Positions 21,298-48,006 of a DNA stretch of 60,297 nt are shown here, piece by piece (position 1 is the first letter of the stretch; each line of letters opens with the position of its first letter). The notes below the pieces were generated by a model. The model was given only the letters and a program-made list of their open reading frames with translations. It did no database searches and was not told where the DNA came from. Both the position numbers and the translations under genes were made by a program. The stretch spans positions 1 through 60,297 of the forward strand of contig JASHPW010000032.1 in the NCBI GenBank assembly GCA_030037895.1, in the 5' to 3' direction. The DNA is from Xanthobacteraceae bacterium. GTDB taxonomy: Bacteria > Pseudomonadota > Alphaproteobacteria > Rhizobiales > Xanthobacteraceae.

Positions 21298-21483
21298 TCA
21301 TTCCCGCTTGGTATCGTTTGCGGTGAACAAGGTTTGCTGCTCGGTTTGCCGGCCCTTTTCGATATCCGATCCTTGATCCCGGCTTAAATGCCGGGTCTGG
21401 TGTTCTCCCCATGCCAAAATCACTCCGAAGCCGACGAAGGCGAGACAAAAGGCGGCGAACATGAGCATGTCAGTGAACGACAT
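21298..21483 (-). CDS. Small single-helix membrane protein, 61 aa
   Basis: The product has one membrane helix (MSFTDMLMFAAFCLAFVGFG, then VILAWGEH) and a charged C-terminal tail. The ATG at 21483 is chosen over the in-frame ATG 12 bp upstream because GGAG lies six bases before it. Short proteins of this form occur in Rhizobiales, but no function is known. Confidence 0.55.
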   Translation of the reverse strand: MSFTDMLMFAAFCLAFVGFGVILAWGEHQTRHLSRDQGSDIEKGRQTEQQTLFTANDTKRE

Positions 21484-21555
21484 GACCGTCTCCAATGGAA
21501 GGAACGTTGTTGCGATCCGTGCGGCACTCCTCGCGGCTCGATCAGACTCGCACTA

Positions 21556-22050
21556 CTAATCGATGCGTTTCCGCACCAAGGCCGGGGCGACGTCCAAGCT
21601 CGTTCGCCGAATAACCTCCGCCGCAGCCAGACCGAAGAGCAGCTTCGAGGTGAGACTGACCGCATAGGGAACCGCGTGGACAAAGCTCGGACTGAGGATC
21701 GGAAGCACCACGAAAAAGTTGATCGCCCAGACGCCGGCGAGCGCGGTCAGCATGAACGGGTAGGGATTGGCCGGAGAGCGCCGCCGGCCGCGCAAGGCCG
21801 TCCATAAGACGGCGAGCGCAACACCCAGCATCATCGCGAGCGTCATATGCACGGCGACGCCAAGCGCCGCGGACGACGCCGGCAACAGCGCGCTCATTCC
21901 GGCCGCAGTGGTCACGCCGCGCGCCAAAGCGGCGGCGCTGGAGCCGGTCGCCCTGGCATAAAGCATCACCCAGGCGATCTCGGCCAAGCCGCCGGCCACT
22001 CCGGCGAGAATGCCTCGATGAAAAGTTTCAAGGTCGCGAATGCTTTGCAT
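21556..22050 (-). CDS. Integral membrane protein of unknown function under a FixK-type box
   Basis: The 164-residue protein has four to five predicted helices. Recognisable stretches are HRGILAGVAGGLAEIAWVML, a helix with HMTLAMMLGVALAV, and FVVLPILSPSFVHAVPYAVS. No known domain is evident. It is divergent from the DoxX-nnrS-pat operon. The box at 22109-22122 is centred 65 bp before its ATG, the distance expected for class II activation with a leader of about 24 nt. Confidence 0.75.
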   Translation of the reverse strand: MQSIRDLETFHRGILAGVAGGLAEIAWVMLYARATGSSAAALARGVTTAAGMSALLPASSAALGVAVHMTLAMMLGVALAVLWTALRGRRRSPANPYPFMLTALAGVWAINFFVVLPILSPSFVHAVPYAVSLTSKLLFGLAAAEVIRRTSLDVAPALVRKRID

Positions 22051-22108
22051 GGCGCAGTATCCCGCTCTTCAAATTATTTTCTTTGCTCATGCGAGCTGAT
22101 ACGGCATT

Positions 22109-22122
22109 GATCTGCGTCAAGG
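22109..22122 (-). promoter_or_regulatory. FixK/FNR box for the 164-aa membrane protein gene
   Basis: TTGATCTGCGTCAA fits TTGA-N6-TCAA, the consensus bound by FixK-type regulators. The centre lies 65 bp before the minus-strand start at 22050. It forms a back-to-back pair with the box at 22243-22256, so each divergent gene has its own site. Confidence 0.8.
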
Positions 22123-22242: not shown

Positions 22243-22256
22243 TTGACTCAGGTCAA
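22243..22256 (+). promoter_or_regulatory. FixK/FNR box for the DoxX-nnrS-pat operon
   Basis: TTGACTCAGGTCAA is a match to TTGA-N6-TCAA. The centre is 61 bp before the ATG at 22311, giving a predicted transcription start near 22291 if it is a -41.5 site. Confidence 0.8.
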
Positions 22257-22310: not shown

Positions 22311-22793
22311 ATGCCGCAATCCAATCTCGACCGTGGCGTGATCTTCGTCCTGCGCATCTTGATAGGCTGGACCTTTCTCTATGCCGGCATTTGGCAAATC
22401 TGGGAGAATTTCGACACTGCCGGCTTCTTGAATCACGTGGTCACGTTCCACGGTTTCTTCTCCGTGTTTGCCCGGCCGGCGGTGTTGCCCTATACGGACT
22501 TTCTGGTGAAGTGGGGCCATTTGCTCATCGGCCTGTCGCTCGTTTCCGGCCTTCTTGTGCGCGTCAGCGGTCCGTTCGCGGTCCTGCTGATGATCACCTA
22601 TTACTTCGCGCACATGCAGTTCCCGTTCATCGAGGATCATCTCAACTACATCGTCGACTATCACCTCGTTTATGCGACGGTGATCGTCTATCTCATTGCG
22701 CATCGCGCCGGCCACGTGTGGGGTCTCGACGGCTTGGTTGAACGATTGCTCATGATCAGGCGCCACCCGACGCTGCGACCTTTGGTCGGATGA
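22311..22793 (+). CDS. DoxX-family membrane protein
   Basis: The 160-residue product has four helices typical of the DoxX/DoxD group: FVLRILIGWTFLYAGIWQI, LVKWGHLLIGLSLVSGLLVR, GPFAVLLMITYYFAHMQFPF and the last near VIVYLIAHRAGHVWGLD. DoxX-like proteins are membrane parts of quinone-linked redox systems or thiol stress complexes; the exact role here is unknown. It is the first gene after the FixK box and a clear SD (GAAGGGAGAG) precedes the ATG. nnrS follows 93 bp downstream. Confidence 0.85.
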   Translation: MPQSNLDRGVIFVLRILIGWTFLYAGIWQIWENFDTAGFLNHVVTFHGFFSVFARPAVLPYTDFLVKWGHLLIGLSLVSGLLVRVSGPFAVLLMITYYFAHMQFPFIEDHLNYIVDYHLVYATVIVYLIAHRAGHVWGLDGLVERLLMIRRHPTLRPLVG

Positions 22794-22886: not shown

Positions 22887-24104
22887 ATGCAAGAGATGAT
22901 GATGAACATGCCCGAGGCGCTTCGCCGCCGCCGCCAATATGCCGGGCTGGCGCTGTTTTCATACGGCTTTCGCCCGTTCTTTCTCGGCGGCGCAATATGG
23001 GCCGCGCTCGGCATTTTATTGTGGCTGCCGCAGTACTTCGGCGAATGGTCGCTGCCGACGGCGTTCAGCCCGCTCGATTGGCATATCCACGAGATGATCT
23101 ATGGCTATCTGTCGGCGGTCATCGCGGGTTTTCTGCTCACGGCGATTCCCAATTGGACCGGGCGGCTGCCGGTCAACGGCTATCCGCTGGCCGGTCTCTT
23201 CGCGCTATGGCTGGCGGGGCGCGTGGCAATCGCTTGTTCCGCGATCTGCGGCGCGCGGCTTGCGGCGGCGATCGACGTCGCCTTCCTTGCGGTATTCGCG
23301 GCGGTGGCCGTGCGCGAAATCATCGCCGGAAAGAATTGGCGCAACCTGCGCGTTCTCGTCGTGCTGGGCGTGCTGATTGCCGGCAACGTGGTTTTTCATC
23401 TCGAAACCATCTGGCGTGGCAGCGCCGACTATGGCGTGCGCCTCGGCCTGGCCGCGATAATCGGTCTCATCATGCTGGTCGGCGGCCGTATCATACCGAG
23501 CTTCACCCATAATTGGCTGGCACGAAATAATCCCGGTCGGCTGCCGAGGGCGTTTTCGCGATTCGATGCGATAGCTCTCGCGGTGAGCGCGGTCGCGCTC
23601 GCCGCCTGGATCGCGTTCGCGCAATCCGCCATATCCGGTGCGGTGTTGATCATTGCGGGATTGCTGCAGATAATTCGCCTCGCGCGCTGGGCGGGCGATC
23701 GTACATCGGCGGACCGTCTCGTGCTCGTTCTCCATGTCGCCTACGCGTTCGTGCCGATTGGTTTCCTGCTGTCGGGTGCGGCGATCCTGTGGCCGTCCCA
23801 TTGGCCGCCGAGTGCCGGCCTCCATGCCTGGACGGCGGGAGCCGCCGGCTTGATGACGCTCGCGGTCATGACGCGCGCCAGCCTCGGCCACACCGGGCGC
23901 AAGCTCGTCGCGGCGCCGCCGACGCAATTGATCTATTTGTGCGCGCTCGTCGCCGTGCTCGCCCGCATCATCGCCGCGTTCGACCCGTCGCCGGCATGGC
24001 TCTACGTCGCCGCGCTGGCCTGGTTCCTAGCTTTCGGCGGCTTTGCCTCCGTCTTCGGTCCGCTGCTCGCAGGTCGTCCGCCGGCATGGAGCGAGAAAGC
24101 ATGA
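22887..24104 (+). CDS. nnrS: NnrS-family haem/copper membrane protein
   Basis: The 405-residue, about 12-helix protein matches NnrS: FSYGFRPFFLGGAIWA at the start, DWHIHEMIYGYLSAVIAGFLLTA, NWTGRLPVNG, GGRIIPSFTHNWL and AVMTRASLGHTGR near the C-terminus. NnrS proteins bind haem and help cells resist NO and related nitrosative damage; they are commonly under NnrR/FixK-type control, as here. The ATG at 22887 is preceded by GAGGAAAGG. It shares a transcript with DoxX and probably with the pat-like gene. Confidence 0.93.
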   Translation: MQEMMMNMPEALRRRRQYAGLALFSYGFRPFFLGGAIWAALGILLWLPQYFGEWSLPTAFSPLDWHIHEMIYGYLSAVIAGFLLTAIPNWTGRLPVNGYPLAGLFALWLAGRVAIACSAICGARLAAAIDVAFLAVFAAVAVREIIAGKNWRNLRVLVVLGVLIAGNVVFHLETIWRGSADYGVRLGLAAIIGLIMLVGGRIIPSFTHNWLARNNPGRLPRAFSRFDAIALAVSAVALAAWIAFAQSAISGAVLIIAGLLQIIRLARWAGDRTSADRLVLVLHVAYAFVPIGFLLSGAAILWPSHWPPSAGLHAWTAGAAGLMTLAVMTRASLGHTGRKLVAAPPTQLIYLCALVAVLARIIAAFDPSPAWLYVAALAWFLAFGGFASVFGPLLAGRPPAWSEKA

Positions 24105-24229
24105 AGCGGAGCGGGCAAGTGCGAGAGTTTGGTCGCTCTCCGGGCAACATGGAAATGACCGATCTGAAAGTCAAAGAATGGCCTCACATCGAGACGGGCC
24201 GGATCGATGTCGACCTACCGCCTCAATAA
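24101..24229 (+). CDS. Possible 42-aa peptide coupling nnrS to the pat-like gene
   Basis: An ATG overlaps the nnrS stop (ATGA) and opens a 42-codon frame that ends 23 bp inside the next gene. Its product is hydrophilic (MKRSGQVREFGRS, MEMTDLKVKEWPHIET) and unlike anything I recognise. The overlap at both ends suggests a leader that couples translation, but chance cannot be excluded. Confidence 0.3.
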   Translation: MKRSGQVREFGRSPGNMEMTDLKVKEWPHIETGRIDVDLPPQ

Positions 24230-26900
24230 GTTGTTTTCGCCGCGCTCCATCGTCGTCGTCGGCGCCTCGCCGCGCGCGACGTCGCCGGGTCGTGCCGTAC
24301 TGAGAAACCTCCGGGGCGGCGGCTTCGCGGGCGCCATTCATCTCGTCAATCCTCATTACGAGACGATCGAAGACGTTCGCGCCGCCAAATCCTACGATGA
24401 TCTTCCGGAGGCGCCTGACGTGGTCGTGATCGGCGTTCCGCCCCCGGCTATTCCCTCCATTGTCGCCGCGGCGGGCGCAAAAGGCACGGCGGCCGGTATC
24501 ATTCTCACGGCCGGCCTCGGTCACGGCCCCGGCTCGCTGGCCGATGCCTGCGAGAAGGCCGCGCGTGCTGCGGGAATGCGTCTCGTCGGCCCCAATTGCC
24601 TCGGCGTTCTGGTGCCCGGATCGAAGCTCAACGCGAGCTTTGCCGCCTCGATGCCGCGCCCGGGCGACCTCGCCCTCATCTCCCAATCCGGCGCCATTGC
24701 CACCGGACTGGTGGAATGGGCGTCGGCGCGCGGCATCGGATTTTCAGCGATCGTCTCCATCGGCGACAGCATCGACGTCGATTTTGCCGACCTGCTCGAC
24801 TTCTTCGCCCTGGATCGGGGAACGCGCGCCATCCTGCTGTACATCGAATCGATCCGCGACGCGCGCAAGTTCATGTCCGCGGCCCGCGCCGCCGCGCGCG
24901 CAAAGCCGGTGCTGGTCGTCAAATCCGGTCGCCATGCGCAGGGCGCAAAAGCGGCGCTGACGCATACCGGCGCGCTGGCCGGCGCGGACGCCGTCTATGA
25001 CGCCGCATTCCGGCGCGCCGGCCTGTTGCGCGTGCTCGATCTCGACGAGCTGTTCGCCGCCGCGGAAACACTGGGACATCTGACGAAGCTTTCCGGCAAG
25101 CGGCTCGCCCTGCTGACCAACGGCGGCGGCATCGGCGTCATGGCGGTGGATCGCCTCGCAGATCTTGGCGGCGAGCTTGCCGAGCTTTCGCCGGACACGA
25201 TGAAGACGCTCGATGCGGCGCTGCCGCCGATCTGGTCGCGGGCCAATCCCGTCGATATTGCCGGCGATGCGGACGATGCCAGGTATGCGGCTGCGCTCGA
25301 GCAACTGCTCGACGACGGCCAAAACGACGCCGTGCTGGTCATGAACGTGCCGACGGCGCTTGCATCGGCGCTCGATGCGGCAAAGTCGGTGATTGCCGTC
25401 ACCGAGCGGCATCGCCGGCAACCGGCCGCGGCAAAGCCGGTGTTCGCGGTGTGGATCGGCGGCAGCGATGCGGCCTCGGCGGCGTTCGATATGGCCAATA
25501 TTCCCAGTTACGCGACTGAATCGGATGCCGTCGGCGGCTTCATGCATCTTGTCCAGTATCGGGAGTCGCGCGAATTGCTGATGGCGACCCCACCCAGCCT
25601 GCCGCAGGATTTCGCGCCGAACGTGACCGCGGCGCGTCCGGTCATCGAAGCCGCGTTGCGCGCCGGGCGCACCTGGCTCGATCCCATCGAGATGACGCGC
25701 CTGTTCTCGGCTTATGGGATCGCCGTTACTCCGGCGACCCTTGCGAGGGACGCCGATGAAGCCGTCGCCGCGGCCAGACCCTATCTTGAGGAAGGCGTCG
25801 CGGTCGTCCTCAAGGTTCTTTCGCCCGATATCGTGCACAAGTCGGAAGTCGGCGGCGTTCGGCTGAATCTGACGACCGAGCGCGCCGTGCGCGAGGCGGC
25901 TGCGGATGTTTTAAGCCGGGCACGGGCGGCGAAACCCGAGGCGCGCATTACCGGCGTGACCGTTTTCCCCATGATCGTGCGTCCCAAGGCGCGCGAACTC
26001 ATCGTCGGCGTCGCCGACGATCCCACATTCGGTCCGGTCATCGTTTTCGGGCAAGGGGGTACGGCGGTCGAGGTGATCAGCGACAAGGCGCTGGCGCTGC
26101 CGCCGCTCGATCTCGAGCTTGCCCGCGGCCTCATCGCGCGCACGCGGGTGTCCCGTATCCTCAAGGCTTACCGCAACGTTCCCGCCGCCGACGAACGCGC
26201 CGTCGAGCTTCTCCTCGTCAAGCTGGCGCAACTCGTGGCCGATTGTCCGGAGATTCGCGAGATCGATCTCAATCCGGTGCTGGCCGACGAGACCGGGGTC
26301 GTCGCCGTCGATGCCCGCGTCTCGATTGCGCCGGTGCAAAAACTCCGGCGCGGCCCGTCCGGCCATCCGCGGTTCGCGATCAGGCCCTATCCCAAGGAAT
26401 GGGAGCGGCACATGAGATTGCCGGACGGGACGGCCATTTTTCTGCGTCCTATTCGGCCGGAGGACGAGCCGCTTTATGGGCCGTTCCTTGCGGCGGTCAC
26501 GGCGGAGGATCTGCGCCTGCGCTTTTTCGCTCCGCTGAAAGAGTTCAGCCACGCCTTCATTGCCCGGTTCACTCAAATCGACTACGCGCGCGCCATGGCC
26601 TTTATCGCCATCAAGGAAGCGACGGGCGAAATGCTCGGCGTCGTGCGCCTGCACGCCAAGCCGGATTACGCGTCCGGCGAATATGCCATTCTCGTCCGCT
26701 CCGATTTGAAGGGCCACGGCCTCGGCTGGCTGATGATGCAGATGATCATCGACTATGCTCGCGCGGAAGGTTTCGGCACGATCGAAGGAGAGGTGTTGCA
26801 TGACAACGCGGCGATGCTGCGCATGTGCGAGGAGTTTGGCTTTGCCATATCGCACGATCCCGACGATCCGCATATCAGCGTCGTGAAGCTTTCGCTTTGA
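24207..26900 (+). CDS. PatZ-like protein: ADP-forming acyl-CoA synthetase domains fused to a GNAT acetyltransferase
   Basis: The 897-residue protein has the Pat/PatZ order. It consists of a CoA-binding Rossmann domain (about 1-135, IVVVGASPRATSPGRAVLRN), succinyl-CoA-ligase-like domains (150-430), an ATP-grasp domain (about 480-700, VLKVLSPDIVHKSEVGGVRL) and a C-terminal GNAT domain (about 730-897, LVRSDLKGHGLGWLMMQMII). Pat proteins acetylate lysines of acyl-CoA synthetases and other enzymes. The active-site His of ADP-forming synthetases is still present here in ALTHTGALAG, whereas some Pat proteins have lost it, so ligase activity may persist. It is the last gene of the FixK-box operon DoxX-nnrS-pat. 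Confidence 0.88.
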   Translation: MSTYRLNKLFSPRSIVVVGASPRATSPGRAVLRNLRGGGFAGAIHLVNPHYETIEDVRAAKSYDDLPEAPDVVVIGVPPPAIPSIVAAAGAKGTAAGIILTAGLGHGPGSLADACEKAARAAGMRLVGPNCLGVLVPGSKLNASFAASMPRPGDLALISQSGAIATGLVEWASARGIGFSAIVSIGDSIDVDFADLLDFFALDRGTRAILLYIESIRDARKFMSAARAAARAKPVLVVKSGRHAQGAKAALTHTGALAGADAVYDAAFRRAGLLRVLDLDELFAAAETLGHLTKLSGKRLALLTNGGGIGVMAVDRLADLGGELAELSPDTMKTLDAALPPIWSRANPVDIAGDADDARYAAALEQLLDDGQNDAVLVMNVPTALASALDAAKSVIAVTERHRRQPAAAKPVFAVWIGGSDAASAAFDMANIPSYATESDAVGGFMHLVQYRESRELLMATPPSLPQDFAPNVTAARPVIEAALRAGRTWLDPIEMTRLFSAYGIAVTPATLARDADEAVAAARPYLEEGVAVVLKVLSPDIVHKSEVGGVRLNLTTERAVREAAADVLSRARAAKPEARITGVTVFPMIVRPKARELIVGVADDPTFGPVIVFGQGGTAVEVISDKALALPPLDLELARGLIARTRVSRILKAYRNVPAADERAVELLLVKLAQLVADCPEIREIDLNPVLADETGVVAVDARVSIAPVQKLRRGPSGHPRFAIRPYPKEWERHMRLPDGTAIFLRPIRPEDEPLYGPFLAAVTAEDLRLRFFAPLKEFSHAFIARFTQIDYARAMAFIAIKEATGEMLGVVRLHAKPDYASGEYAILVRSDLKGHGLGWLMMQMIIDYARAEGFGTIEGEVLHDNAAMLRMCEEFGFAISHDPDDPHISVVKLSL

Positions 26901-26987: not shown

Positions 26988-27001
26988 TTGATATGGATCA
27001 A
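26988..27001 (+). promoter_or_regulatory. FixK/FNR box before the PhaC-like hydrolase
   Basis: TTGATATGGATCAA matches TTGAT-N4-ATCAA exactly. Its centre is 84 bp before the ATG at 27079 and 72 bp before a TTG at 27067. Confidence 0.82.
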
Positions 27002-27078
27002 GGTGAAATCGTGCGGAGCAAAGCACAAACCATAAAGGCGGACCGATCGCCGCTCGCGAGCCCGAATTGGCAGCCCTC

Positions 27079-28311
27079 ATGTATGACCCGGCAGGCCGTC
27101 AGTACCCAAATCTGGCTTTTCTCTGGCCGGCCTTTGCCGCCGCCGCGGCCAGCGAAATGGCCGGATTGGTGGCCAAGCAATTCGCCGATCTCGCTGTCGG
27201 GACGGACCGATCGACGGCGCACGAGCCGAGCTGGGCCACGCCTCATACGATCGCGCTCGAGCTCAAGACCGTGCGGTTGCGCGATTTCAGCATCGAGGCG
27301 ACGGGGTCGCCGACGTTGCTGTGCGCTCCGCTGGCCTTGCATAGTGCGGCTATCGCCGATTTTGCGCCGGGGCACAGCCTGATCGCCACCATGCGGCAGG
27401 GCGGGCTGCGGCGGCTGTTCGTCGCCGACTGGCGATCGGCGCGCGCGGACATGCGCTCTCTCGGCATCGACGATTATCTCGCCGACCTCAACGTGCTCGT
27501 CGACGCGATCGGCGGCGTGGTCGATCTCGTCGGCTTGTGCCAGGGAGGCTGGATGGCGCTCGTCTATGCGGCGCGTTTTCCGGCAAAGGTCCGCAAGCTC
27601 GTTCTGGCCGGCGCGCCGGTCGATATCACAGCGGCGCCGTCCGCCCTGTCGGAACTCGCCGACGCGAGCCCGCTGCCGGTCTTTCACGAGCTGGTGCGGC
27701 TTGGCGACGGAAACCTTCTCGGGAAGAGAGTGCTGAAATTCTGGAGCGTCGAGTCGGTGGCCGCCGAAGACGTGCGGCACGTGCTGCAGACGGAGGAACC
27801 GATCGGTTCCGCCGCCTTCGCCCGGCTCGAGGCGCTGTTTCGCGGCTGGTATAACTACACCGTCGACTTGCCGGGAGCGTTCTTCCTCGAAGTGGTGGAC
27901 AAGCTCTACAAGCGCAACGAACTCGCCGGCGGCCGCTTCGTCGCTCTCGGACAGCGGATCGACCTCGCGACGGTCAAGACGCCCGTCTTCATGTTGGCGG
28001 CGCGCGATGACGAATTGGTCGCTCCGCCGCAACTGTTCGCGGTCGAGCGGCTGGTGGGCACCGACGCACTCCATCTCCGCAAGATGATTGTCCCATCCCG
28101 CCATGTAGGGCTGTTCATGGGGAAGCGGATTCTCGAGGACGTGTGGCCGACGATCGTCCGTTGGCTTATGCCGTTGCCAATGATCAATCCGACGCGCGTT
28201 CCAAGCGCCGACAAGGACGTGTCAAGCCCACAAGAGCGGATGCTGCCCCGCGCGCGGCGCAATCCAAGTATTCGCAACGCGGACGCGAGATTTGATCCAT
28301 ATCAACGCTAA
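27079..28311 (+). CDS. PhaC-like alpha/beta hydrolase with a cysteine lipase box
   Basis: The 410-residue protein has an alpha/beta-hydrolase core related to PHA synthases. Its nucleophile elbow is LVGLCQGGW, so the residue is Cys154, as in PhaC, rather than the Ser of ordinary lipases. The acid is probably in ARDDELVAPP and the base in SRHVGLFMG. It lacks the long N-terminal PhaC domain and is shorter than class I PhaC (about 600) but close to class III PhaC (about 360); no PhaE partner is visible. It may be a synthase-like or thioesterase/depolymerase-like enzyme in PHA metabolism. The start is uncertain: ATG 27079 or TTG 27067, neither with a strong SD. A phasin gene follows. Confidence 0.72.
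   Translation: MYDPAGRQYPNLAFLWPAFAAAAASEMAGLVAKQFADLAVGTDRSTAHEPSWATPHTIALELKTVRLRDFSIEATGSPTLLCAPLALHSAAIADFAPGHSLIATMRQGGLRRLFVADWRSARADMRSLGIDDYLADLNVLVDAIGGVVDLVGLCQGGWMALVYAARFPAKVRKLVLAGAPVDITAAPSALSELADASPLPVFHELVRLGDGNLLGKRVLKFWSVESVAAEDVRHVLQTEEPIGSAAFARLEALFRGWYNYTVDLPGAFFLEVVDKLYKRNELAGGRFVALGQRIDLATVKTPVFMLAARDDELVAPPQLFAVERLVGTDALHLRKMIVPSRHVGLFMGKRILEDVWPTIVRWLMPLPMINPTRVPSADKDVSSPQERMLPRARRNPSIRNADARFDPYQR
28293..28306 (+). promoter_or_regulatory. FixK/FNR box before the phasin gene
   Basis: TTGATCCATATCAA is a perfect TTGAT-N4-ATCAA site. It overlaps the last codons of the PhaC-like gene. The centre is 73 bp before the phasin ATG; a -10-like TAGATT at 28328-28333 has the right spacing for class II activation. 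Confidence 0.82.
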
Positions 28312-28372: not shown

Positions 28373-28741
28373 ATGGTGCAAAAAGAAGCTCAAGGCGAGG
28401 CGAGCGAGAAGTCCTGGTTCGCCGCAATGGGAAAGAAGCGTGTCGAGGACTTCGCCAACGCGCAGACGGAGTTTCTCGGCAAACTCCAAGAGGCGAACCG
28501 GCAATGGTTCGAGCGCATGCAATCGGAAGCGAGTCTGGCGTCCGAATTGGCGTCGAAATTGTCTGCCGCGCGTTCAATCCCCGACGCGATGACCGCATGT
28601 CAGGAATGGACCGGCCGGCGGTTTGAGATGATGGCGGAGGACGGCAAGCATCTTCTGACCGATATCCAGAAATTCATCGAGACGGGCTCCCGCCTGGCGT
28701 CGAACGGCTGGCTGTCCAACCGCCCCGACGCCAGCACGTAG
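28373..28741 (+). CDS. Phasin-like PHA granule protein
   Basis: The 122-residue product is entirely helical and amphipathic, without signal or membrane helices. It has the phasin-like pattern WFAAMGKKRVEDFANAQTEFLGKLQEANRQWFERMQ followed by EWTGRRFEMMAEDGKHLLTDIQKFIETG. Phasins coat PHA granules and control their number and size. The ATG has a strong SD (GGAGG, six bases upstream). Its own FixK box and the neighbouring phaC and PhaC-like genes fit PHA accumulation under low oxygen. Confidence 0.8.
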   Translation: MVQKEAQGEASEKSWFAAMGKKRVEDFANAQTEFLGKLQEANRQWFERMQSEASLASELASKLSAARSIPDAMTACQEWTGRRFEMMAEDGKHLLTDIQKFIETGSRLASNGWLSNRPDAST

Positions 28742-30965: not shown

Positions 30966-31053
30966 GGCGCTCGCTCCAAAATATTTGTTAGTTTGAACCT
31001 TTGATCGCATTGCGTCCATGATCAAAATCAAAAACGACCGGCGCGAACGACTT

Positions 31054-31067
31054 TTGACAAAACGCAA
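31054..31067 (-). promoter_or_regulatory. Imperfect FixK/NnrR-type box before phaC
   Basis: The plus-strand sequence is TTGACAAAACGCAA, a TTG-N8-CAA dyad with a perfect left half and a weaker GCAA right half. Its centre is 95 bp before the phaC ATG. It could also act on the divergent gene at 31111, but that start is too close for a standard -41.5 arrangement. Confidence 0.5.
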
Positions 31068-31570: not shown

Positions 31571-31584
31571 TTGATCGCGATCAA
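31571..31584. promoter_or_regulatory. Perfectly palindromic FixK/FNR box between two divergent genes
   Basis: TTGATCGCGATCAA is a perfect 14-bp palindrome; with flanking bases TTTGATCGCGATCAAA it extends to 16 bp. It is centred 57 bp before the Crp-family regulator start (31635) and 84 bp before the 54-aa gene start (31493). Symmetry allows activation in both directions. Confidence 0.85.
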
Positions 31585-38649: not shown

Positions 38650-38663
38650 TTGACCCGGATCAA
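38650..38663 (+). promoter_or_regulatory. FixK/FNR box, distal of a tandem pair before adh
   Basis: TTGACCCGGATCAA fits TTGA-N6-TCAA. Its centre is 17 bp upstream of the second box at 38667-38680 and 132 bp before the adh ATG. Confidence 0.75.
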
Positions 38664-38666: not shown

Positions 38667-38680
38667 TTGACTCAGATCAA
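38667..38680 (+). promoter_or_regulatory. FixK/FNR box, proximal of a tandem pair before adh
   Basis: TTGACTCAGATCAA fits TTGA-N6-TCAA. It begins four bases after the first box ends, putting the two on nearly opposite faces of the helix (17 bp between centres), so simultaneous binding of two dimers would be crowded. The centre is 115 bp before the ATG at 38789. Confidence 0.78.
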
Positions 38681-40078: not shown

Positions 40079-40528
40079 ATGAAGAGGCTTTCGATCCCCC
40101 ACGGCGCGTTGGTGTTCGTCGGCGACGGGCAGAAGGCCCTATTCCTTCGTAATGTCGGCGACGAGAAATTTCCAAATCTGGCCGCCGAGCGTGTGTTCAC
40201 TGACGATAATCCGCCGACCCACGCGCAAGGGGCCGATCGCCCGGGGCGGGCGTTCAAGCGGGCGGCGACGAACCTGCGCAGCAGCATGGAGACGACCGAT
40301 TGGCATGAGCTGGAGAAGGAGCGTTTTGTCGGGCGCGTGGCTGCCGCCCTGGAGCAACTCGTCCGTGCGGAGAAGGCCAAGGCGATCATTGTTGTCGCTC
40401 CGCCGGGGACGCTTGCCGAGCTGCGGCAAGCGTTCCACGAGGATGTGAAGAGACGAATTATTTCCGAGGTCAACAAGGATCTGACCAAGCACCCCGTTTG
40501 GGAAATCGAAAAGCACCTCGTGGAATGA
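40079..40528 (+). CDS. Host-attachment (AtsA-like, PF10116) family protein
   Basis: The 149-residue soluble protein matches the family named for an Agrobacterium protein needed for attachment to host cells: ALVFVGDGQKALFLRNVGDE, DWHELEKERFVGRVAAALEQ, KAIIVVAPPGTLAELRQAFH and KDLTKHPVWEIEKHL. The fold is related to eRF1/aRNase-like domains; the biochemical role is unknown, and in free-living bacteria the genes often sit with stress genes. The 249 bp upstream hold no gene or FixK box that I can see. Confidence 0.82.
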   Translation: MKRLSIPHGALVFVGDGQKALFLRNVGDEKFPNLAAERVFTDDNPPTHAQGADRPGRAFKRAATNLRSSMETTDWHELEKERFVGRVAAALEQLVRAEKAKAIIVVAPPGTLAELRQAFHEDVKRRIISEVNKDLTKHPVWEIEKHLVE

Positions 40529-40861: not shown

Positions 40862-41608
40862 CTAGATGACGGTCAGCGTCGAGGCCGGCGCGGACCCTTC
40901 GGCCGCGTCTTCGGTCGAGGGAAACGCCGTGCCGGATATCGGCTCGACCCAAACGAGATGATCGCGCACCTGTTTAACGCCGGCGACATTCTCGGCGGCG
41001 ACGATGCACGCTTGGCGTTCGCGCTCGTCCATGATCGTGCCCCACAATTCCGCCACGCCGTCCTTGACGACCACGGTGATTCCCGGAGCCCAGGGTTCGT
41101 TGCCGAGTGCGGCCGTAATGTCGTCGCGGATCGTCGAATCGCTCTTGGCCGGTCCCGGCGTGTCGCGGACGAGGCTCGCCAGGGCGTAGAGGAGATTGGC
41201 CCGACTCACGATGCCCACCACCTTACCGTCACGCAGGACGGGAAGCCGCTTGATCCGCCGGCGCTCCATGAGATCGACGACGGTATCGAGCGAATCGTCC
41301 TCGGCGACCGTCACTGGATCGAGCGTCATGACTTCATCGATTTTCCGACCGGACGCGTGCACGTATTCGGCGGACAGCCGCCCGGGGCCGATAACGAACT
41401 CCAGCCATTTCGGTCGTCGCCGTTGCGTGCCAATTTCACTGCGGCGCAGAAAATCTCCTTCCGTCACGATGCCGACGAGGTTGCCCGCGGCGGCGACGAC
41501 CGGCAGGCCGCTGATCCCGTTCTGCAGCATCAGGCGCGCGGCTTTGAGAATCGTGTCGTCGGGCGCCACGGAAATCACGTTTCGCGTCATCACATCACGG
41601 ACTTGCAT
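40862..41608 (-). CDS. Two-CBS plus BON domain protein
   Basis: The 248-residue protein has two CBS motifs (about 1-60 with MQVRDVMTRNVISVAPDDTI, and 88-145 with VMTLDPVTVAEDDSLDTVVD) and a C-terminal BON domain (about 155-222, IRDDITAALG, VVVKDGVAELWGTI). CBS pairs bind adenosine nucleotides and act as energy sensors; BON domains bind membranes or other proteins. It lies 62 bp downstream of fixK on the same strand, so it may be read through from fixK; no separate FixK box is visible. CBS proteins of this kind are part of oxygen-starvation responses in other bacteria. Confidence 0.88.
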   Translation of the reverse strand: MQVRDVMTRNVISVAPDDTILKAARLMLQNGISGLPVVAAAGNLVGIVTEGDFLRRSEIGTQRRRPKWLEFVIGPGRLSAEYVHASGRKIDEVMTLDPVTVAEDDSLDTVVDLMERRRIKRLPVLRDGKVVGIVSRANLLYALASLVRDTPGPAKSDSTIRDDITAALGNEPWAPGITVVVKDGVAELWGTIMDERERQACIVAAENVAGVKQVRDHLVWVEPISGTAFPSTEDAAEGSAPASTLTVI

Positions 41609-41670: not shown

Positions 41671-42387
41671 TCAGGCGTTCAAACGATTCAGCGCGGAGCG
41701 GTTGCGCACCACGATGCGCCGGGACGTCGGCACCTCGATCGCCGCCGCGCTTTCGAGCGACGTCAACGTCCGCGAGACGGTCTCGATCGTCAGGCCGAGA
41801 TAGTCGGCGATATCCTGGCGCGACATCGGCAGCTCGATGGAGTTGCCGGCTGATCCGCGGGCCGCCATCTCCAGGAGGAAGCTCGCCACCCGCTCCTGCG
41901 CGCTCTTGACGAGCAGCAGGACGTGCTGTTGCGCCTGCCTCAGCTCGCGGCCGGTGAGGACGAAAAGCCCGCGCGCGATCGCTGCATCGCGCTGCGCAAG
42001 CGCCGTGATGGCGCTGCGCTTGATCACCAATATCTTCGCATCGGTGATGGCCTCGGCCGACAGCGTGTGCTCGTCGGCGAATTCAAGGCCGAAAATATCG
42101 CCGGACAGATAGAATCCGCCGATCTGGCGGCGGCCGTCGTTCAGGACCTTGTAAGTCCGCACGCTGCCGCTGATGACCTTGTAAATGTATTCGGCAGGCT
42201 CGTCCTCACCGAAAATCTCCGCGTTACGCGGAAACGACATGGTAGCGCCCATGAGATGCATGGAGTGGCCCAACGGCTCGCGCTCGCCGGCGTCGTCGAG
42301 ATCGTGGCGCGCGACCGGCGCGGCATTGCGCGTCGGCGGGATGGAGCGACGGAAAGTATCGGCGGAAACGGATGTTTGCGTGAGCAT
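41671..42387 (-). CDS. fixK: FixK-type Crp/Fnr transcription activator
   Basis: The 238-residue regulator has a sensor barrel without the FNR cysteine cluster, a long dimer helix (GRELRQAQQHVLLLVKSAQE) and a helix-turn-helix with LPMSRQDIADYLGLTIETVS, then RTL. The recognition helix E-T-V-S-R is that of FixK/FNR proteins, which read TTGA-N6-TCAA. It is divergent from fixL with 96 bp between them, and no TTGA-N6-TCAA site lies in front of it, consistent with control by FixJ. FixK is the expected activator of the boxes listed across this window. The CBS-BON gene follows on the same strand. Confidence 0.9.
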   Translation of the reverse strand: MLTQTSVSADTFRRSIPPTRNAAPVARHDLDDAGEREPLGHSMHLMGATMSFPRNAEIFGEDEPAEYIYKVISGSVRTYKVLNDGRRQIGGFYLSGDIFGLEFADEHTLSAEAITDAKILVIKRSAITALAQRDAAIARGLFVLTGRELRQAQQHVLLLVKSAQERVASFLLEMAARGSAGNSIELPMSRQDIADYLGLTIETVSRTLTSLESAAAIEVPTSRRIVVRNRSALNRLNA

Positions 42388-42457
42388 GGCCCTTTACCTC
42401 CAGGAGCGTCGGGAGGTATTGGTAACCGTCGAGAAGCCGGTGAAAAATTCAGATAAT

Positions 42458-42469
42458 GCCCCTAAGGGC
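42458..42469. promoter_or_regulatory. Short inverted repeat in the fixK-fixL intergenic region
   Basis: GCCCCTAAGGGC has arms GCCC/GGGC around CTAA. It is the only symmetrical element I see in the 96 bp between the divergent fixK and fixL genes and is a candidate FixJ or autoregulatory site, but I cannot match it to a proven FixJ consensus. Confidence 0.3.
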
Positions 42470-42483
42470 TTTTCCTGAGGGGA

Positions 42484-44100
42484 ATGCAGGAGGCGCTCGA
42501 CCAAAGGCGATCGGCTGAGGCGATCGGCAAAAAGCCCATAGAACATGACACGGGCACGATCATCTGCAGTGGGATCGTCGGCAACCATGTCGATGCGCAA
42601 CTGGACGCGGTAAGGTGGGAATTGAAGGCCCCCGTATTCCACAAAGCCTTTATGCCATACGGCATTGCGATCCTGGCGATCGCAGCGGCGTTGGCAGTTC
42701 GCCTGGCATGGGCGTCGATCTTGATCGGCGAGGCGTCCTACCTGTTTTTCCTGCCGGCCATCCTGATCGCATCAACGCTTGGCGGCTTGGGTCCCGGGCT
42801 TTTCGCAACTATCGCGGGCCTGCTGCTCGGCTTGTTTTTTGTTGTCGACTTTCGCGCAGTGTCGAATGCCGACGTTGTGAATGCCGTCGTCTTCACGCTC
42901 GTCGGCGCGGGCGCGTCATGGGGCGGCGAATTGCTGCGTCGCGCGCGCCTCGCCGCAGCCGCAAATGCGACGGCCGCGATGTCCCGCGCGGCCCATCTCA
43001 AATCCATACTCGATAGTATTCCCGAAGCCATGATCGTCATCGATGATCGCGGCATCATGCAATCGTTCAGCTCGACGGCGGAACGGCTGTTCGGCCGCAC
43101 CGCGGCGGACGTCGTGGGGAAAAACGTCAAGATATTGATGCCGTCGCCCTACCGGGAAAACCACGATGGCTATATCGAGCGCTATCTGCGCACCGGGGAG
43201 CGGCGCATCATCGGCATCGGCCGGGTCGTGGTCGGCGAACGTAAGGACGGTTCGACTTTTCCCATGGAGCTTGCCGTCGGCGAGATGCATGTCGGCGATC
43301 AACGCTTCTTCACCGGATTCATTCGCGACCTCACGGAACGCCAGGAGACTGAAGCGCGGCTGCAGGAGTTGCAGGCCGAGCTCGTGCACATGTCGCGCCT
43401 GACCGCCATGGGGGAGATGGCCTCCGCTCTCGCCCACGAACTCAATCAGCCGCTGTCGGCGATCGTCAATTATATGAAAGGATCGCGCCGGCTCCTGGAG
43501 GACAGTCGCGACGAGCGCGCGGGCATCCTGCGCGACGCCATAGGAAAGGCTGCAGAACAGGCCCTGCGGGCGGGTGAGATCATCCGCCGTTTGCGCGACT
43601 TCGTCACCCGCGGCGAGAGCGAGCGGCGGGTCGAGGACGTGAAGAAGCTCATCGAGGAAGCGAGCGCGCTCGCACTGGTCGGCGCTAAGGACCGCGGCGT
43701 GCGCGTCCGTTTCCAATTCGATCCGGGCGTCGATTTCGTGCTTGCGGACAAGGTGCAGATTCAGCAGGTCCTGCTCAACCTGATGCGCAACGCCATCGAG
43801 GCGATGGAGGACTCGGAAAAGCGCGAGCTTGTCGTATCGACGGTCTCGACGGCGGACAACCAGGTCGCGATCGGCGTGTCCGACACCGGGTCCGGGATCA
43901 CGCCGGAAATGAGCGCCCAGTTGTTTCAACCGTTCGTCACCACCAAGCCTCACGGCACGGGCGTCGGCCTTTCGATCTCGCGCACCATCGTCGAGGCGCA
44001 TGGCGGCTCGATCACGGCGCAGCCAAATCCCGGAGGGGGAACGGTGTTCCGGTTCACGTTACCGGCCGTCAATAAAGAGGAAGTCGGCAATGCCGTCTGA
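42484..44100 (+). CDS. fixL: FixL oxygen-sensing haem-PAS histidine kinase, membrane-bound form
   Basis: The 538-residue kinase has four N-terminal helices (about 58-150, DUF4118-like), a PAS domain (about 170-285), HisKA with His318 in [10 protein letters not shown], and a HATPase domain (about 395-530; [19 protein letters not shown]). In the PAS domain the haem ligand is conserved: ENHDGY places His227 where Bradyrhizobium FixL has His200, and Arg247 in IIGIGR is 20 residues later, matching Arg220. FixL autophosphorylates when O2 leaves the haem. The ATG follows GAGGGGA. Its stop overlaps the start of fixJ by 11 bp. Confidence 0.95.
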
Positions 44101-44713
44101 AAAGGCCACCGTGCACGTGATCGACGACGACGAGGCGATACGCCAGTCCCTCGCGTTCCTGTTGCAGACGGCGCAGATCGAGGTCCAAACCTATTCGTCC
44201 GCCGCGGCCTTCCTGGATTTGCTGCCGGACGTTGGCGCGAGCTGCGTCATTACCGACGTGCGCATGCCCGGAATGAGCGGTATCGATCTGCTGCGGCGGT
44301 TGAAAGAGCTTAAGATCGGCGTCCCCGTGATCGTCATCACCGGTCACGGCGACGTGCCGTTGGCGGTGGAGGCGATGAAGATCGGCGCCGCGGATTTCTT
44401 CGAGAAGCCGTTCGACGACGAGGCGTTGCTGGCCAGCGTGCGCTCAGCGCTCAAGGAGCGCAACGCCGAGACAAAGCGGCACACGGAACGCGGCGATATC
44501 GAGAGCCGGATCGCGACGCTCTCCAATCGCGAACGCGACGTCTTGGGCGGCCTGGTGGCCGGCCGCGCCAACAAGCAGATCGCTTTCGATCTCGGCATCA
44601 GCCCACGCACCGTCGAAATCTATCGGGCGAACCTCATGAGCAAGATGCAGGCGGGAAGCCTGTCCGAACTGGTGCGCATGGCGCTTATTGCCGGCATTCT
44701 GGATGCAAGCTGA
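44090..44713 (+). CDS. fixJ: FixJ response regulator
   Basis: The 207-residue regulator has a receiver domain with the acidic pocket VIDDDEA, phospho-acceptor Asp56 in ITDVRMPG, Thr/Lys switch residues in VITGHGD and FEKPFDDE, and a LuxR-type helix-turn-helix ([20 protein letters not shown], then [13 protein letters not shown]). FixJ-phosphate activates fixK-type promoters under low oxygen. It overlaps the fixL stop, so the two proteins are made together. The internal ATG at 44090 is preferred over 44000 because the earlier stretch lies inside fixL and is not receiver-like. Confidence 0.96.
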
Positions 44714-44735: not shown

Positions 44736-44749
44736 TTGATTTGGCTCAA
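44736..44749 (+). promoter_or_regulatory. FixK/FNR box before the usp-ATPase operon
   Basis: TTGATTTGGCTCAA matches TTGA-N6-TCAA. The centre is 60 bp before the ATG at 44803, predicting transcription from about 44784; CATAGT at 44770-44775 fits a -10 position. Confidence 0.78.
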
Positions 44750-44802: not shown

Positions 44803-45633
44803 ATGATCAAGGATATCGTCGTCGATCTGCAGCTCGGAGAAGCCGGCGCGCCGGCCGGAGACTACGCCGTGTCCCTGGCCACGACCTTTGCCGCCCACGT
44901 TACCGGGGTTGCATTTATTTACGATGCGATCTTTCCCGAGTCGGCGATGGGCTACATCTCGCCGGCGGCAATCGACAAGCAGCGACAGGACAACGAAGCC
45001 GAGGCCGCCGCAGCCGTCAACCGGTTCGCCGCTGCGGCCGCGCGCGCCGGAATCCCGGCCGAGCCGCTGACCCTTACCGCCGATTTTGCCAATGTCGGGA
45101 GCCAATTCAGCCGTATCGCCCGGCACTTCGATTTCGCGGTCGTCGGCCAGGCCGAACCCGGAACGAGTGCGATTCAGGAGACGATCGTCGAAAGCACGCT
45201 GTTCGAGGCCGGCCGCCCCGTGATCATGGTGCCCTATATCCAGAAAGCACCGCTCAAGCTCGACAACGTGATGGTGTGCTGGGACGGCAGCCGGCCGGCT
45301 GCACGCGCCGTCGCCGACGCGCTGCCGCTCCTCACGCGGGCGAAACGCGTCGAGGTTGTCACCATCACCAACGATTGGGGCAAGCAGACCGAGATCGAAG
45401 GCGCCGACATCGGTCGGCACCTCGCGCGCCATGAACTCAAGGTGGACGTCGAGCGCATTGCCGCAGGCGACGTCGATGTCGCCGACGCCTTGCTGTCGCA
45501 CGCTTCCGATTCCGACGCCGATTTCATCGTCATGGGCGGCTACGGCCATTCCCGGATGCGGGAATTTGTGCTCGGCGGCGCGACGCGCGGTATCCTGCGT
45601 TCCATGACGGTGCCGACGCTGATGTCCCATTGA
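44803..45633 (+). CDS. Universal stress protein with two Usp domains
   Basis: The 276-residue protein contains two Usp modules: residues 1-145 (ending RPVIMVPYIQ) and about 150-276, which carries the nucleotide-binding-like HASDSDADFIVMGGYGHSRM followed by GGATRGILRSM. The C-terminal module has the G-x2-G-x9-G-(S/T) type motif in a slightly altered form. The ATG at 44803 is chosen because AGGAGG lies eight bases before it and an upstream ATG (44749) falls inside the FixK box. The P-type ATPase gene starts 55 bp downstream, so the two form an operon. Confidence 0.9.
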   Translation: MIKDIVVDLQLGEAGAPAGDYAVSLATTFAAHVTGVAFIYDAIFPESAMGYISPAAIDKQRQDNEAEAAAAVNRFAAAAARAGIPAEPLTLTADFANVGSQFSRIARHFDFAVVGQAEPGTSAIQETIVESTLFEAGRPVIMVPYIQKAPLKLDNVMVCWDGSRPAARAVADALPLLTRAKRVEVVTITNDWGKQTEIEGADIGRHLARHELKVDVERIAAGDVDVADALLSHASDSDADFIVMGGYGHSRMREFVLGGATRGILRSMTVPTLMSH

Positions 45634-45687
45634 GCACGCGAGGAGGTTCGACGGCCGGCGGAGGGGCGCGCTTCAGGAGCCCGCAGA

Positions 45688-48006
45688 TTGGACCTCAATT
45701 CCCCGCGCGGTCTGACGAGCGATGAGGTTTGTCGCCGTCGCCGGCAGTTCGGACCGAACGCGATACCGGACACGGCACCGCATCCCCTGCTCGCGTTCGC
45801 GTGGAAATTTTGCGCGCCGGTGCCCTGTCTGCTCGAGGCTGCGATCGCCCTGCAAGTGGTGCTCGGAGAATACATCGAGGCGTCGATCATAGCCGGCCTC
45901 TTGATCTTCAACGCCGCAATCGGGTTGCTTCACGAGCGCCGCGCCCAGGCGACGATCGCCGCGTTGAAGTCGCGTCTTGCGCTCACCGCGTCGGTTCGGC
46001 GCGACGGATCGTGGAAGACCGTGCCGGCCACGGAACTGGTCCCCGGCGACATCATCAAGCTGTCGCTCGGCGGCATCGTGGCCGCGGACGTGCGCCTGCT
46101 CGACGGTTCGATCCTGCTCGACCATTCGATGCTGACCGGCGAGTCGCTTCCCATCGAGGGCGGCCGCGGGCGGGATACATACGCCGGCGCGCTGGTGCGT
46201 CGGGGCGAAGCCGTCGCCGAAGTGACAGCGACGGGCGTGCACACGAGATTCGGGCGCGGCGCCGAACTCGTCCGCAGCGCCTATGTGGTGAGTTCCCAGC
46301 AGAAAGCGGTCTTTCGGGTGGTTCGCAATCTCGCCGTTTTCAACGGATTGGCGACCGTCGCGCTGATCGCCTACGCCTACGGGATCGGCATGCCGATCTC
46401 CGAATTGGTTCCGCTTTTGCTGATATCCGTGCTGGCATCCGTGCCGGTGGCCCTGCCGGCGACGTTTACGCTCGCCACCGCATTGGGAGCGCAGGCGCTC
46501 GCCGAACTCGGCGTCCTGCCGACGCGGTTGTCGGCCGTGGATGAAGCCGCCAGCATGGACGTTCTTTGCGCCGACAAGACCGGAACATTGACGCTCAACG
46601 AGCTGCGGGTCGCCGCAATTTGCCCGATGAGCGGGTTCGATAACAACCGGATTCTGGCCTTGGCGGCGCTGGCGAGTTCGGACGGAGGGCTGGATCCGGT
46701 CGATGCCGCCATTCGTCGGGAAAATCTCGACAAGCCGGCCGCGGATTTGCCCGCACTGGTCAAATTCATTCCGTTCGACCCGGCGACGAAAATGTCGGAA
46801 GCACATGCAGCGGACTCGGCCGGCGGCGCGCTGCGCATCGTCAAAGGCGCTTTTGCGGTGATCGATCGGCTCTCACAGCCCTCGCCGACGGCGCTCGCCG
46901 CGGCCGCGAAGCTGGAGGCGGAGGGCTTCAGGGTGCTCGGCGTCGCGCTCGGCGCTTCATCTCCGTTGCGGCTCGCCGGGCTTATTGCGCTCAGCGATCC
47001 GCCCCGACCCGAGGCAAAGCCGTGTATTCGCGAATTGCGCCAACTGGGCGTGCGAACCCTGATGGTGACCGGCGATGCGCCCGAAACCGCCGCCGTGGTG
47101 GCACGCGCCGTCGGTATCGAGGGCGCGATCTGTCCGGCGCCGTCGATTCCGGCGGGTGTCCCCGGGGCGGAATTCGGCGTCTTTGCCGGAGTCCTGCCGG
47201 AGGACAAATATCGGCTTGTCAAGGGTCTGCAACGCGCCGGCCATGTCGTGGGCATGTGCGGGGACGGCGCCAACGACGCGCCCGCCTTGAGTCAGGCGCA
47301 GATCGGGATCGCGGTATTCACGGCGACGGATGTCGCGAAATCGGCGGCGGGCATCGTGCTCACCGAGCCGGGGCTCGGCGGAATTCTCGCCGCCGTGCGC
47401 GAAGGCAGGGTCACCTTCCAGCGCATCTTGACCTATACGTTGCGGTCCATCGTCCATAAAACCCGCCAGGTGCTGTTCCTGGGAACCGGCCTGGTCATGA
47501 CCGGCCACGCGATCCTCACTCCGATGTTGGTGGTCATCTCGATGATGACCGGTGATTTCCTGGCGATGTCGTCGACCACCGACAATGTGCGGCCGTCGCC
47601 GCTGCCGAATGCATGGCGCATCGACAACCTGACCGTCGCCGGCATCATCATGGGCGTTTGCGATCTCGCGTTCTGCGCGGGCGTGCTGGCGATCGGCAAA
47701 TTCCGCCTCGGCCTTGGCATCGACACGCTGAGAACCTTGACGCTCGTCACATTGACATTCAGCGGACAGGCGATCTTTTATGTGGTTCGCGAGCGCAAGC
47801 GACTGTGGTCGTCGAGGCCGAGCCTGATCGTCGTCCTGTCTTCCATCGCGGATCTGTCGATCATCCCGGCGATGGCGATCGGCGGAATTCTCATGGCTCC
47901 GCTGTCGCCTTTGTTGGTTGCCGGCATTTTTGCCGCATCGATCGCGTTGGCTCTGGCACTGGATCAAGTGAAGTTCGCAATTTTCTCCCGCCTTGAAATG
48001 CTGTGA
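45688..48006 (+). CDS. P-type ATPase of the plasma-membrane proton-pump (P3A-like) type
   Basis: The 772-residue pump has the actuator motif TGESLPIEG, the transport helix PVALPATFTLATA, phosphorylation site DKTGTLTLNE, the nucleotide-domain KGAF, MVTGDAPE and the hinge GDGANDAPAL, with about ten membrane helices. The helix-4 PVALP motif and overall size match P3A H+-ATPases and their bacterial relatives rather than metal pumps (no CPx and no N-terminal metal domain). The likely start is TTG at 45688 with CAGGAG upstream. It is co-transcribed with the usp gene after the FixK box. Confidence 0.9.
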   Translation: MDLNSPRGLTSDEVCRRRRQFGPNAIPDTAPHPLLAFAWKFCAPVPCLLEAAIALQVVLGEYIEASIIAGLLIFNAAIGLLHERRAQATIAALKSRLALTASVRRDGSWKTVPATELVPGDIIKLSLGGIVAADVRLLDGSILLDHSMLTGESLPIEGGRGRDTYAGALVRRGEAVAEVTATGVHTRFGRGAELVRSAYVVSSQQKAVFRVVRNLAVFNGLATVALIAYAYGIGMPISELVPLLLISVLASVPVALPATFTLATALGAQALAELGVLPTRLSAVDEAASMDVLCADKTGTLTLNELRVAAICPMSGFDNNRILALAALASSDGGLDPVDAAIRRENLDKPAADLPALVKFIPFDPATKMSEAHAADSAGGALRIVKGAFAVIDRLSQPSPTALAAAAKLEAEGFRVLGVALGASSPLRLAGLIALSDPPRPEAKPCIRELRQLGVRTLMVTGDAPETAAVVARAVGIEGAICPAPSIPAGVPGAEFGVFAGVLPEDKYRLVKGLQRAGHVVGMCGDGANDAPALSQAQIGIAVFTATDVAKSAAGIVLTEPGLGGILAAVREGRVTFQRILTYTLRSIVHKTRQVLFLGTGLVMTGHAILTPMLVVISMMTGDFLAMSSTTDNVRPSPLPNAWRIDNLTVAGIIMGVCDLAFCAGVLAIGKFRLGLGIDTLRTLTLVTLTFSGQAIFYVVRERKRLWSSRPSLIVVLSSIADLSIIPAMAIGGILMAPLSPLLVAGIFAASIALALALDQVKFAIFSRLEML

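Follow-up and report, generated by a model that had tools for sequence, protein, structure and literature searches.

We found that an alphaproteobacterial FixLJ–FixK regulon is very probably gathered in one island of about 27 kb, at roughly 20.9–48.0 kb of a 60,297-nucleotide contig (JASHPW010000032.1) of an uncultured Xanthobacteraceae bacterium. The window analysed is this whole contig (G000:C8), which belongs to a 148-contig draft genome of 3.27 Mb with 89.9% completeness, and it was compared with 19 further genomes of the same uncultured genus (G001–G019; 20 genomes including this one). The island holds fixL, fixJ and fixK together with nine exact FixK-type boxes placed before start codons, and several of these boxes accompany the same genes in relatives. 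We regard a real FixLJ–FixK island as very probable because the box–gene linkage is kept, a candidate FixJ-type palindrome precedes fixK, and the histidine and arginine of the haem-PAS domain of FixL are aligned with those of a known FixL. The system is of a known kind. Its unusual features are that it is gathered in an island and that neither the fixNOQP genes nor a receiver gene commonly found near fixJ were detected in this draft.

FixK-type boxes in the window and the genome

The pattern TTGA-N6-TCAA occurs exactly ten times in the window, against a mean of 0.56 and a maximum of 3 in 100 shuffles, and the spacing controls N5 and N7 are each absent from the window. Nine of the ten sites lie at 22107–44749, and for all nine a start codon is found 60–133 bp away, measured from box centre to start codon, so that they sit at putative target promoters. 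The boxes precede the gene of a 164-aa membrane protein (22107–22120, 63.5 bp), doxX (22243–22256, 61.5 bp), a PhaC/PhaZ-like gene (26988–27001), the phasin gene (28292–28305, 74.5 bp), adh (two boxes, 38650–38663 and 38667–38680, at 132.5 and 115.5 bp) and usp (44736–44749, 60.5 bp). One more is located between a 54-aa gene (84.5 bp) and crp1 (31571–31584), and another between hsp20 and chaB (33096–33109). The distance from the box at 31571 to crp1 is 138.5 bp by our script, or about 57 bp if the gene starts at 31635. Eight of the nine are intergenic, and the one at 28292 extends into the 3′ end of the gene before it. The first-pass annotation had counted ten sites at promoter distance within 21298–48006. 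Nine of them stand as exact sites, and the tenth exact match (15866) is outside that interval, within a molybdenum hydroxylase gene. Our guess is that the tenth site of that count was probably the one-mismatch sequence at 31054–31067 before phaC.

The whole genome contains 46 sites with the N6 spacing, whereas the reversed pattern gives 6 and the N7 spacing 14. Nine of the 46 fall in 0.8% of the genome (binomial P = 1.4e-10; Poisson P from the outside rate, 3.7e-11), which is far above background, as the proposal of an island wired by such boxes had implied. A start codon lies 20–250 bp downstream of 9/9 island sites and of 8/36 outside sites (Fisher P = 2.7e-5). Conversely, one of the nine island sites, as opposed to 29 of the 36 outside the window, is within a called coding sequence (Fisher P = 2.2e-4), open reading frames (ORFs) having been called with a simple codon model for which genes of the window itself were the training set. 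Seven of the eight genes behind well-placed outside sites were scanned (all but that of L187). They encode an E1 dehydrogenase, a TENA/THI-4 protein, a sigma-70 factor, an NADH-dehydrogenase-type membrane subunit, an rRNA dimethylase, ribosomal protein S14 and a glyoxalase, none of them evidently linked to the island. The tighter YR-type box, TTGAY-N4-RTCAA, has 17 sites genome-wide, eight of them in the island, and only one of the other nine is intergenic. Thus, in this genome the well-placed perfect boxes are nearly all inside the island, exact boxes being what was surveyed. The shuffles, spacing controls and genome counts rule out boxes by chance, and the seven scanned outside candidates and the single intergenic YR-type site outside rule out a regulon with perfect boxes spread evenly over this genome.

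The regulators and the fixK promoter

The regulatory core has the order cbs–fixK–fixL–fixJ. Profile and structure matches agree that all three fix genes lie in this stretch, as had been annotated. FixL (42484–44100, + strand) consists of an N-terminal membrane part, a haem-type PAS domain and a histidine kinase. Its PAS domain aligns over its full length with Bradyrhizobium FixL (1dp6, E = 6.4e-50), including the H of r-x-x-HD-x-YI and the R of IIGIGR, which we take to be the haem-binding residues. The sensor is therefore a haem-PAS FixL, as first read from the sequence. Its closest named matches come from metagenome-assembled genomes of Xanthobacteraceae and Hyphomicrobiales. FixJ (44110–44713, +; its start is not fixed and the ORF opens at 44000) scores 315.6 bits with the NCBIfam FixJ model (cut-off 255) and matches the FixJ structure 5xso over residues 3–203 of 205 (E = 2.5e-67). 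The closest solved structure to FixK (41671–42387, − strand) is FixK2 (4i2o, E = 4.5e-59), and the E-x-x-S-R recognition helix is kept. FixK is free of cysteine and is therefore unable to carry an Fe–S oxygen sensor itself.

A putative FixJ-type site, the imperfect palindrome CCTAAGGGCTTTTCCTGAGG, is located at 42461–42480 in a conserved block of the fixK–fixL gap. Similar palindromes are found in the same gap at 13 of the 14 loci of relatives, with a search expression that was widened by eye; the exception is G009, whose fixK lies elsewhere. The available text of PMC4999443 gives the FixJ site before fixK as TAAGTAATTTCCCTTA.

A separate feature of the fixK leader is an inverted repeat, TACCTCC/GGAGGTA, at 42388–42419 over the ribosome-binding site, possibly a leader hairpin or an operator; different but matching repeat arms occur in G014, G018 and G013. 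In 15 fixK leaders of the genus, the longest stems that cover the ribosome-binding site add up to 77 bp, compared with 47 in shuffles, and six of the 15 have P < 0.05. No hairpin was found in G007 and G010, only 4 bp in G009, and G012 shows another pairing. RNAalifold predicted zero pairs on a MAFFT alignment of these leaders. We set a conserved hairpin aside as a side observation, given this unevenness and the RNAalifold result. In a more speculative reading, the inverted repeat may add a translational brake on fixK.

Conservation of boxes and genes in relatives

We then compared the fixL-bearing stretches of 13 relatives (L115–L130, 266 kb). They contain 62 boxes with the N6 spacing, against 0, 3, 0 and 5 for N4, N5, N7 and N8. 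The gene order around fixL is shuffled between genomes, and the box–gene linkage is kept. With linkage defined as an exact box at most 300 bp upstream of an orthologue (at least 50% identity, within these stretches), it was found for the 164-aa membrane protein in 5/5 cases (at 65–67 bp), doxX in 7/8, chaB in 3/3, usp in 2/2, and adh and the PhaC2-like gene in 1/1 each. All eight hsp20 orthologues with at least 65% identity (seven genomes) carry a box at 66–75 bp, and six of these eight are on contigs other than the fixL contig of their own genome. Among hsp20 paralogues below 50% identity, two lack a box and a third was unscored. The regulators are mostly without a box in relatives (cbs 0/14, fixL 0/13, fixJ 0/14, fixK 1/14).

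Two long contigs of relatives are concentrated in the same manner, with 15 of 17 boxes in 44 kb round fixLJ in G012:C140 and 22 of 24 in 67 kb in G006:C83, these spans being set after inspection by the outermost clustered sites. Apart from these, a contig of G015 without a listed fixL match (C211, L268) has a second box cluster, with seven YR-type boxes in 13 kb and a pat orthologue.

Several points weigh against a FixLJ–FixK island, or against the membership of single genes. Neither of the two phaC orthologues carries an exact box (0/2), so that phaC is a weak member of the island. No box was found in relatives for hlyD, the two ABC transporter genes abcA and abcP or the 54-aa gene (0/1 each), or for the P-type ATPase gene (0/2), and the host-attachment gene has one in 1/2. 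The pat gene is without its own box here, and a box was found, when exact boxes up to 350 bp upstream were scored separately, before two of the ten relatives' genes beginning at residue 1–3 (two of the ten had only 189 and 273 upstream bases); for pat fragments the count is 1/2. YR-type boxes number 10–66 per genome across the 20 genomes, many of them off the fixL contig, so that in relatives the regulon extends beyond the island. Boxes are sparser in the fixL stretches of family and order relatives, with 37 in 410 kb. FixL and FixK score below their NCBIfam equivalog cut-offs (590.5 vs 850 bits, and 237.7 vs 300 bits for the Caulobacter FixK model). The failure to find fixNOQP applies to a draft genome of 89.9% completeness, and the regulon is a prediction from sequence.

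The cbb3 oxidase and other respiratory genes

The cbb3 oxidase genes fixNOQP are a usual target of FixLJ–FixK regulons, though a member of the family need not have them. In this draft, the ccoN and FixO models gave zero matches. Both models match the same five of the 20 genomes, and neither matches any of the other 15, this one included. All five ccoN genes share a contig with a fixL match (that of G017 is cut by the contig end) and all five stretches have a box; four of the five loci read ccoN–box–cbs–fixK–fixL. The present genome and G006 (95% complete) are among the ten of 14 genomes with a near full-length FixL that show no ccoN. Nor does every genome of the genus have FixL, since no match at its level was found in the 99% complete G008 (best E = 2.5e-28). 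In 11 of 13 relatives, fixJ has a second receiver-domain match close by. This gene was not found here, the best match in the genome to the G001 protein being FixJ itself (34%).

Cytochrome bd is present, with one cydA in the genome. We rejected cydA as a FixK target here; its 4.5-kb stretch has no exact box, and two of seven cydA stretches of relatives have one. At the far left of the window, a norB-type nitric oxide reductase gene (435–2777) has a one-mismatch FixK site (3391–3404) upstream of the preceding 216-aa ORF. The suggested link to nitric oxide would thus consist of NnrS in the island and this distant norB.

Gene content and extent of the island

The gene classes of the island were assigned by Pfam or NCBIfam profile matches, and those named in the first-pass annotation were all recovered, with the proviso that DoxX and the P-type ATPase fall below model cut-offs. 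The left neighbour is tRNA-Gln(CTG) (19104–19177, +), the last backbone element common with relatives. A 136-aa protein (20866–21276, −) probably belongs to the island because it has a 65% identical match inside the island of G006. A small membrane-like ORF of 65 aa (21298–21495, −; 38–39% matches in G005 and G012 stretches) lies downstream of the gene of the 164-aa membrane protein (21556–22050, −). These are followed on the + strand by the DoxX-like membrane protein (22311–22793; Pfam 22.2 bits, just below the cut-off of 23.6), NnrS (22887–24104; 376.3 bits, cut-off 28), the Pat-type protein (24207–26900), an ADP-forming acyl-CoA synthetase fused to a GNAT acetyltransferase, the PhaC/PhaZ-like alpha/beta hydrolase (PhaC2-like, 27067–28311) and phasin (28373–28741). 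The polyhydroxyalkanoate (PHA) synthase PhaC (29085–31067, −) has only the imperfect box mentioned above.

The next genes encode the 54-aa protein (31329–31493, −), the FixK-like Crp/Fnr-family regulator Crp1 (31617–32396, +; likely start 31635), Hsp20 (32509–33036, −) and ChaB (33220–33438, +). An HlyD adaptor, an ABC ATPase-permease and an ABC-2 permease (33598–38599, +) have no exact box upstream and are followed by the zinc alcohol dehydrogenase (38789–39829, +), a Host_attach/baeRF family 12 protein (40079–40528, +) and a protein with two CBS domains and a BON domain (cbs, 40862–41608, −). Among solved structures, the CBS protein is closest to PH1780 (E = 6.8e-23), with Rv2626c at E = 6.8e-7. 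To the right of fixJ are the universal stress protein (Usp) gene (44803–45633, +) and a P-type ATPase gene (45688–48006, +), whose product is nearest to plasma-membrane proton pumps (577.8 bits, below the model's cut-off of 615.5).

Short free GNAT proteins, 57–69% identical to the C-terminal GNAT domain of the Pat-type protein, are found at L245 and L250 and as matches in G002, G006, G011, G013, G015 and G018, in five genomes on the doxX-bearing contig; fused and free forms thus occur within one genus. The right flank of the window encodes an Mtd_N protein (54737–56365) and a gene-transfer-agent-like tail protein (56263–59058; Rcc01698 C-terminal family, phage tail domain).

Chromosomal place and alternative explanations

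We then investigated the flanks of the island. It follows tRNA-Gln at a place where three relatives are without it, so that its acquisition by horizontal transfer is plausible, not proved. An insertion of this kind is compatible with a FixLJ–FixK regulon, and we put its likelihood somewhat short of even. The left flank (guaA–rsmB–guaB–TPR–MFS–rlmE–molybdenum cofactor oxidase–MFS–tRNA-Gln) is collinear in G012 and partly in nine others, and none of these ten backbone stretches contains an island gene at 45% identity or above. All three stretches that hold tRNA-Gln are island-free beyond it, in G012, G008 and G001, with 2.9, 8.7 and 4.0 kb without an island gene or box, and two of them, G012 and G001, have a phage-type integrase after the tRNA. 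A 142-aa ORF of the right flank (51047–51475), which has no Pfam match, has a relative in G008 (61% over 118 aa, same orientation) only 2.5 kb past the tRNA, compared with 31.9 kb here. This raises the odds of acquisition, and judged by this single right-flank anchor the arrangement in G008 is the one expected of an empty site. Moreover, Phenylobacterium zucineum and Sphingobium have clusters of fixLJ and usp on plasmids that are typed as conjugative.

Other observations speak against acquisition. No integrase domain was found in the window ORFs scanned, and no repeat of the tRNA 3′ half of at least 12 bp was found in the window, so that no repeat marks an edge of the island. Two of the other seven backbone stretches (L276 and L280) have one exact box each, the G+C content of the island is only slightly below that of the left flank, and just one gene anchors the comparison with G008. 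A rearrangement would also explain the different flanks. The first-pass idea of a transferable unit is therefore favoured by the position after tRNA-Gln, the island-free relatives and the plasmids, and not by an integrase or flanking repeat. Directly after tRNA-Gln, a possible recombinase remnant (19179–19439, −, 87 aa) is not claimed, because its best match, to a Legionella plasmid 'recombinase family protein', has E = 0.06 (37% over 46 residues). Another plasmid typed as conjugative, pACIX903 (L158) of the acidobacterium Granulicella tundricola, encodes a Crp protein, a nitroreductase, a Usp, a P-type ATPase (56% identical to that of the window) and a zinc alcohol dehydrogenase, and has no exact FixK box.

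Alternatively, the island might be no special unit but one part among others of a large FixK regulon dispersed over the genome, its compactness resulting from genome reduction or incomplete assembly. The dispersed YR-type boxes of relatives and the hsp20 genes off the fixL contig in several of them agree with this, as does the draft state of a genome that, at 3.27 Mb, is among the smaller ones of the genus. However, the long contigs of G012 and G006 are equally concentrated round fixLJ, with two boxes each in their remaining 126 and 151 kb, and we consider this alternative rather unlikely. Still less probable, and in our view unlikely, is that the boxes are mainly bound by another Crp/Fnr protein (Crp1, the candidate examined here, or an Fnr/NnrR encoded elsewhere) and that the island answers nitric oxide, redox state or anaerobiosis and not mainly FixL: the FixK-like Crp1 is encoded inside the island behind a box, and nnrS and the norB region with its one-mismatch site would suit such a response, but Crp1 has A in place of the E of the E-x-x-S-R helix common to FixK and FixK2, its match is kept in none of the genus stretches (weaker overlapping matches were dropped there), and it is cbs–fixK–fixL–fixJ that accompanies the box clusters in relatives.

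Comparison with known systems

The closest likeness of the FixLJ–FixK island is to the FixLJ–FixK2 system of Bradyrhizobium diazoefficiens, from the same order of bacteria. Most gene classes of the island are microoxia-induced there according to the accessible portion of PMC6515984, which names Usp, CBS, Host_attach, PhaC2, GNAT, Crp, Hsp20, AdhP, HlyD and phasin. Direct FixK2 targets given in that portion are Usp (blr2761, bll6069), phaC2 (bll6073), CBS (blr6074), Host_attach (bll5315), Hsp20 (blr7961) and AdhP (bll5655), and its locus numbers suggest small clusters (bll4644–blr4659 and bll6060–blr6074). Judged by the locus numbers given, these genes are spread over the B. diazoefficiens genome, whereas in our window fixLJ, fixK and the putative targets are in one island. 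By the same numbering, fixO and fixP (blr2764 and blr2766) lie near Usp blr2761 and CBS blr2762, whereas fixNOQP was not found in our draft. The fixLJ genes of B. diazoefficiens presumably adjoin this blr2761–blr2766 region.

Clusters of fixLJ with usp nearby are also seen on Sinorhizobium meliloti pSymA, on the P. zucineum HLK1 plasmid and on Sphingobium pSES220. The pSymA stretch has six exact boxes and nnrS, but pSymA differs from the island in having genes for cbb3 oxidase and denitrification. In the stretches of Phenylobacterium and Sphingobium there are two and zero exact boxes, respectively, unlike in the island.

The mycobacterial DosR regulon comprises Usp, Hsp20, CBS, P-type ATPase and storage-polymer functions, under a haem-GAF sensor and with a DosR box of its own. 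The island mirrors these classes, as had been noted, in gene kind and not in regulator or box: its sensor is the haem-PAS FixL and its box is FixK-type, so that the island does not match the haem-GAF DosR/DosS system, no search having been made for a DosR box or for DosS elsewhere in the genome. This likeness, which we draw partly from the accessible text of PMC6127331, is of a known type and not new, because the authors of that work name both FixLJ/FixK and DosR parallels for the lxa locus of Burkholderia cenocepacia. As described there, lxa is a low-oxygen-activated locus of 50 genes, tied to anoxic persistence, and encodes Usp, heat-shock, BON, polyhydroxybutyrate (PHB; phbB) and zinc alcohol dehydrogenase proteins (PMC6127331; in the parts available, see also PMC9733578); the available part of PMC9104464 records that it is missing from strain H111. 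Compared by gene class only, the island may resemble lxa as one large low-oxygen cluster with these functions. The differences are that lxa has six Usps, against one in the island, and that its candidate regulators as described (BCAM0049 and FixLJ BCAL2210/2211) are encoded outside the locus, against inside in the island. Our literature search for FixLJ-wired survival islands in alphaproteobacteria, in which most subscription journals were not covered, returned the above precedents and nothing on this genus.

Proposed circuit and implications

In the circuit that we propose for the FixLJ–FixK island, low oxygen would lead deoxy-haem FixL to phosphorylate FixJ, and phosphorylated FixJ would bind the palindrome at 42461–42480 and switch on fixK. 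FixK would then bind the nine TTGA-N6-TCAA boxes and induce the chaperone gene hsp20, the stress gene usp, PHA storage genes (PhaC2-like and phasin), the nitric oxide-related nnrS and the alcohol dehydrogenase gene. With the operon limits suggested by the gene arrangement, protein acetylation through pat would be co-induced behind doxX–nnrS, a second Crp-type regulator would also be induced, and a proton-pump function perhaps as well, behind usp. Since fixNOQP was not found, such a circuit would serve low-oxygen maintenance or survival rather than cbb3 respiration; the 'dormancy' role and the independent origin put forward in the first-pass annotation are conjectural.

A broader and more speculative interpretation, possible though in our estimate doubtful, is that in most lineages of this genus FixLJ–FixK is uncoupled from cbb3 respiration and, in the present genome, from the receiver protein near fixJ as well. 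It might now serve as a master regulator dedicated to a compact survival cassette that is re-shuffled internally but moves as one unit, with selection for co-transfer holding box and gene together while the gene order changes. The island offers a natural case for asking whether oxygen sensing can govern a survival programme when the high-affinity oxidase is lacking, and it bears on whether joint inheritance is what draws regulons together into islands. As the genus has members with and without fixNOQP beside the same cbs–fixK–fixL–fixJ core, both questions can be approached by comparison within it.

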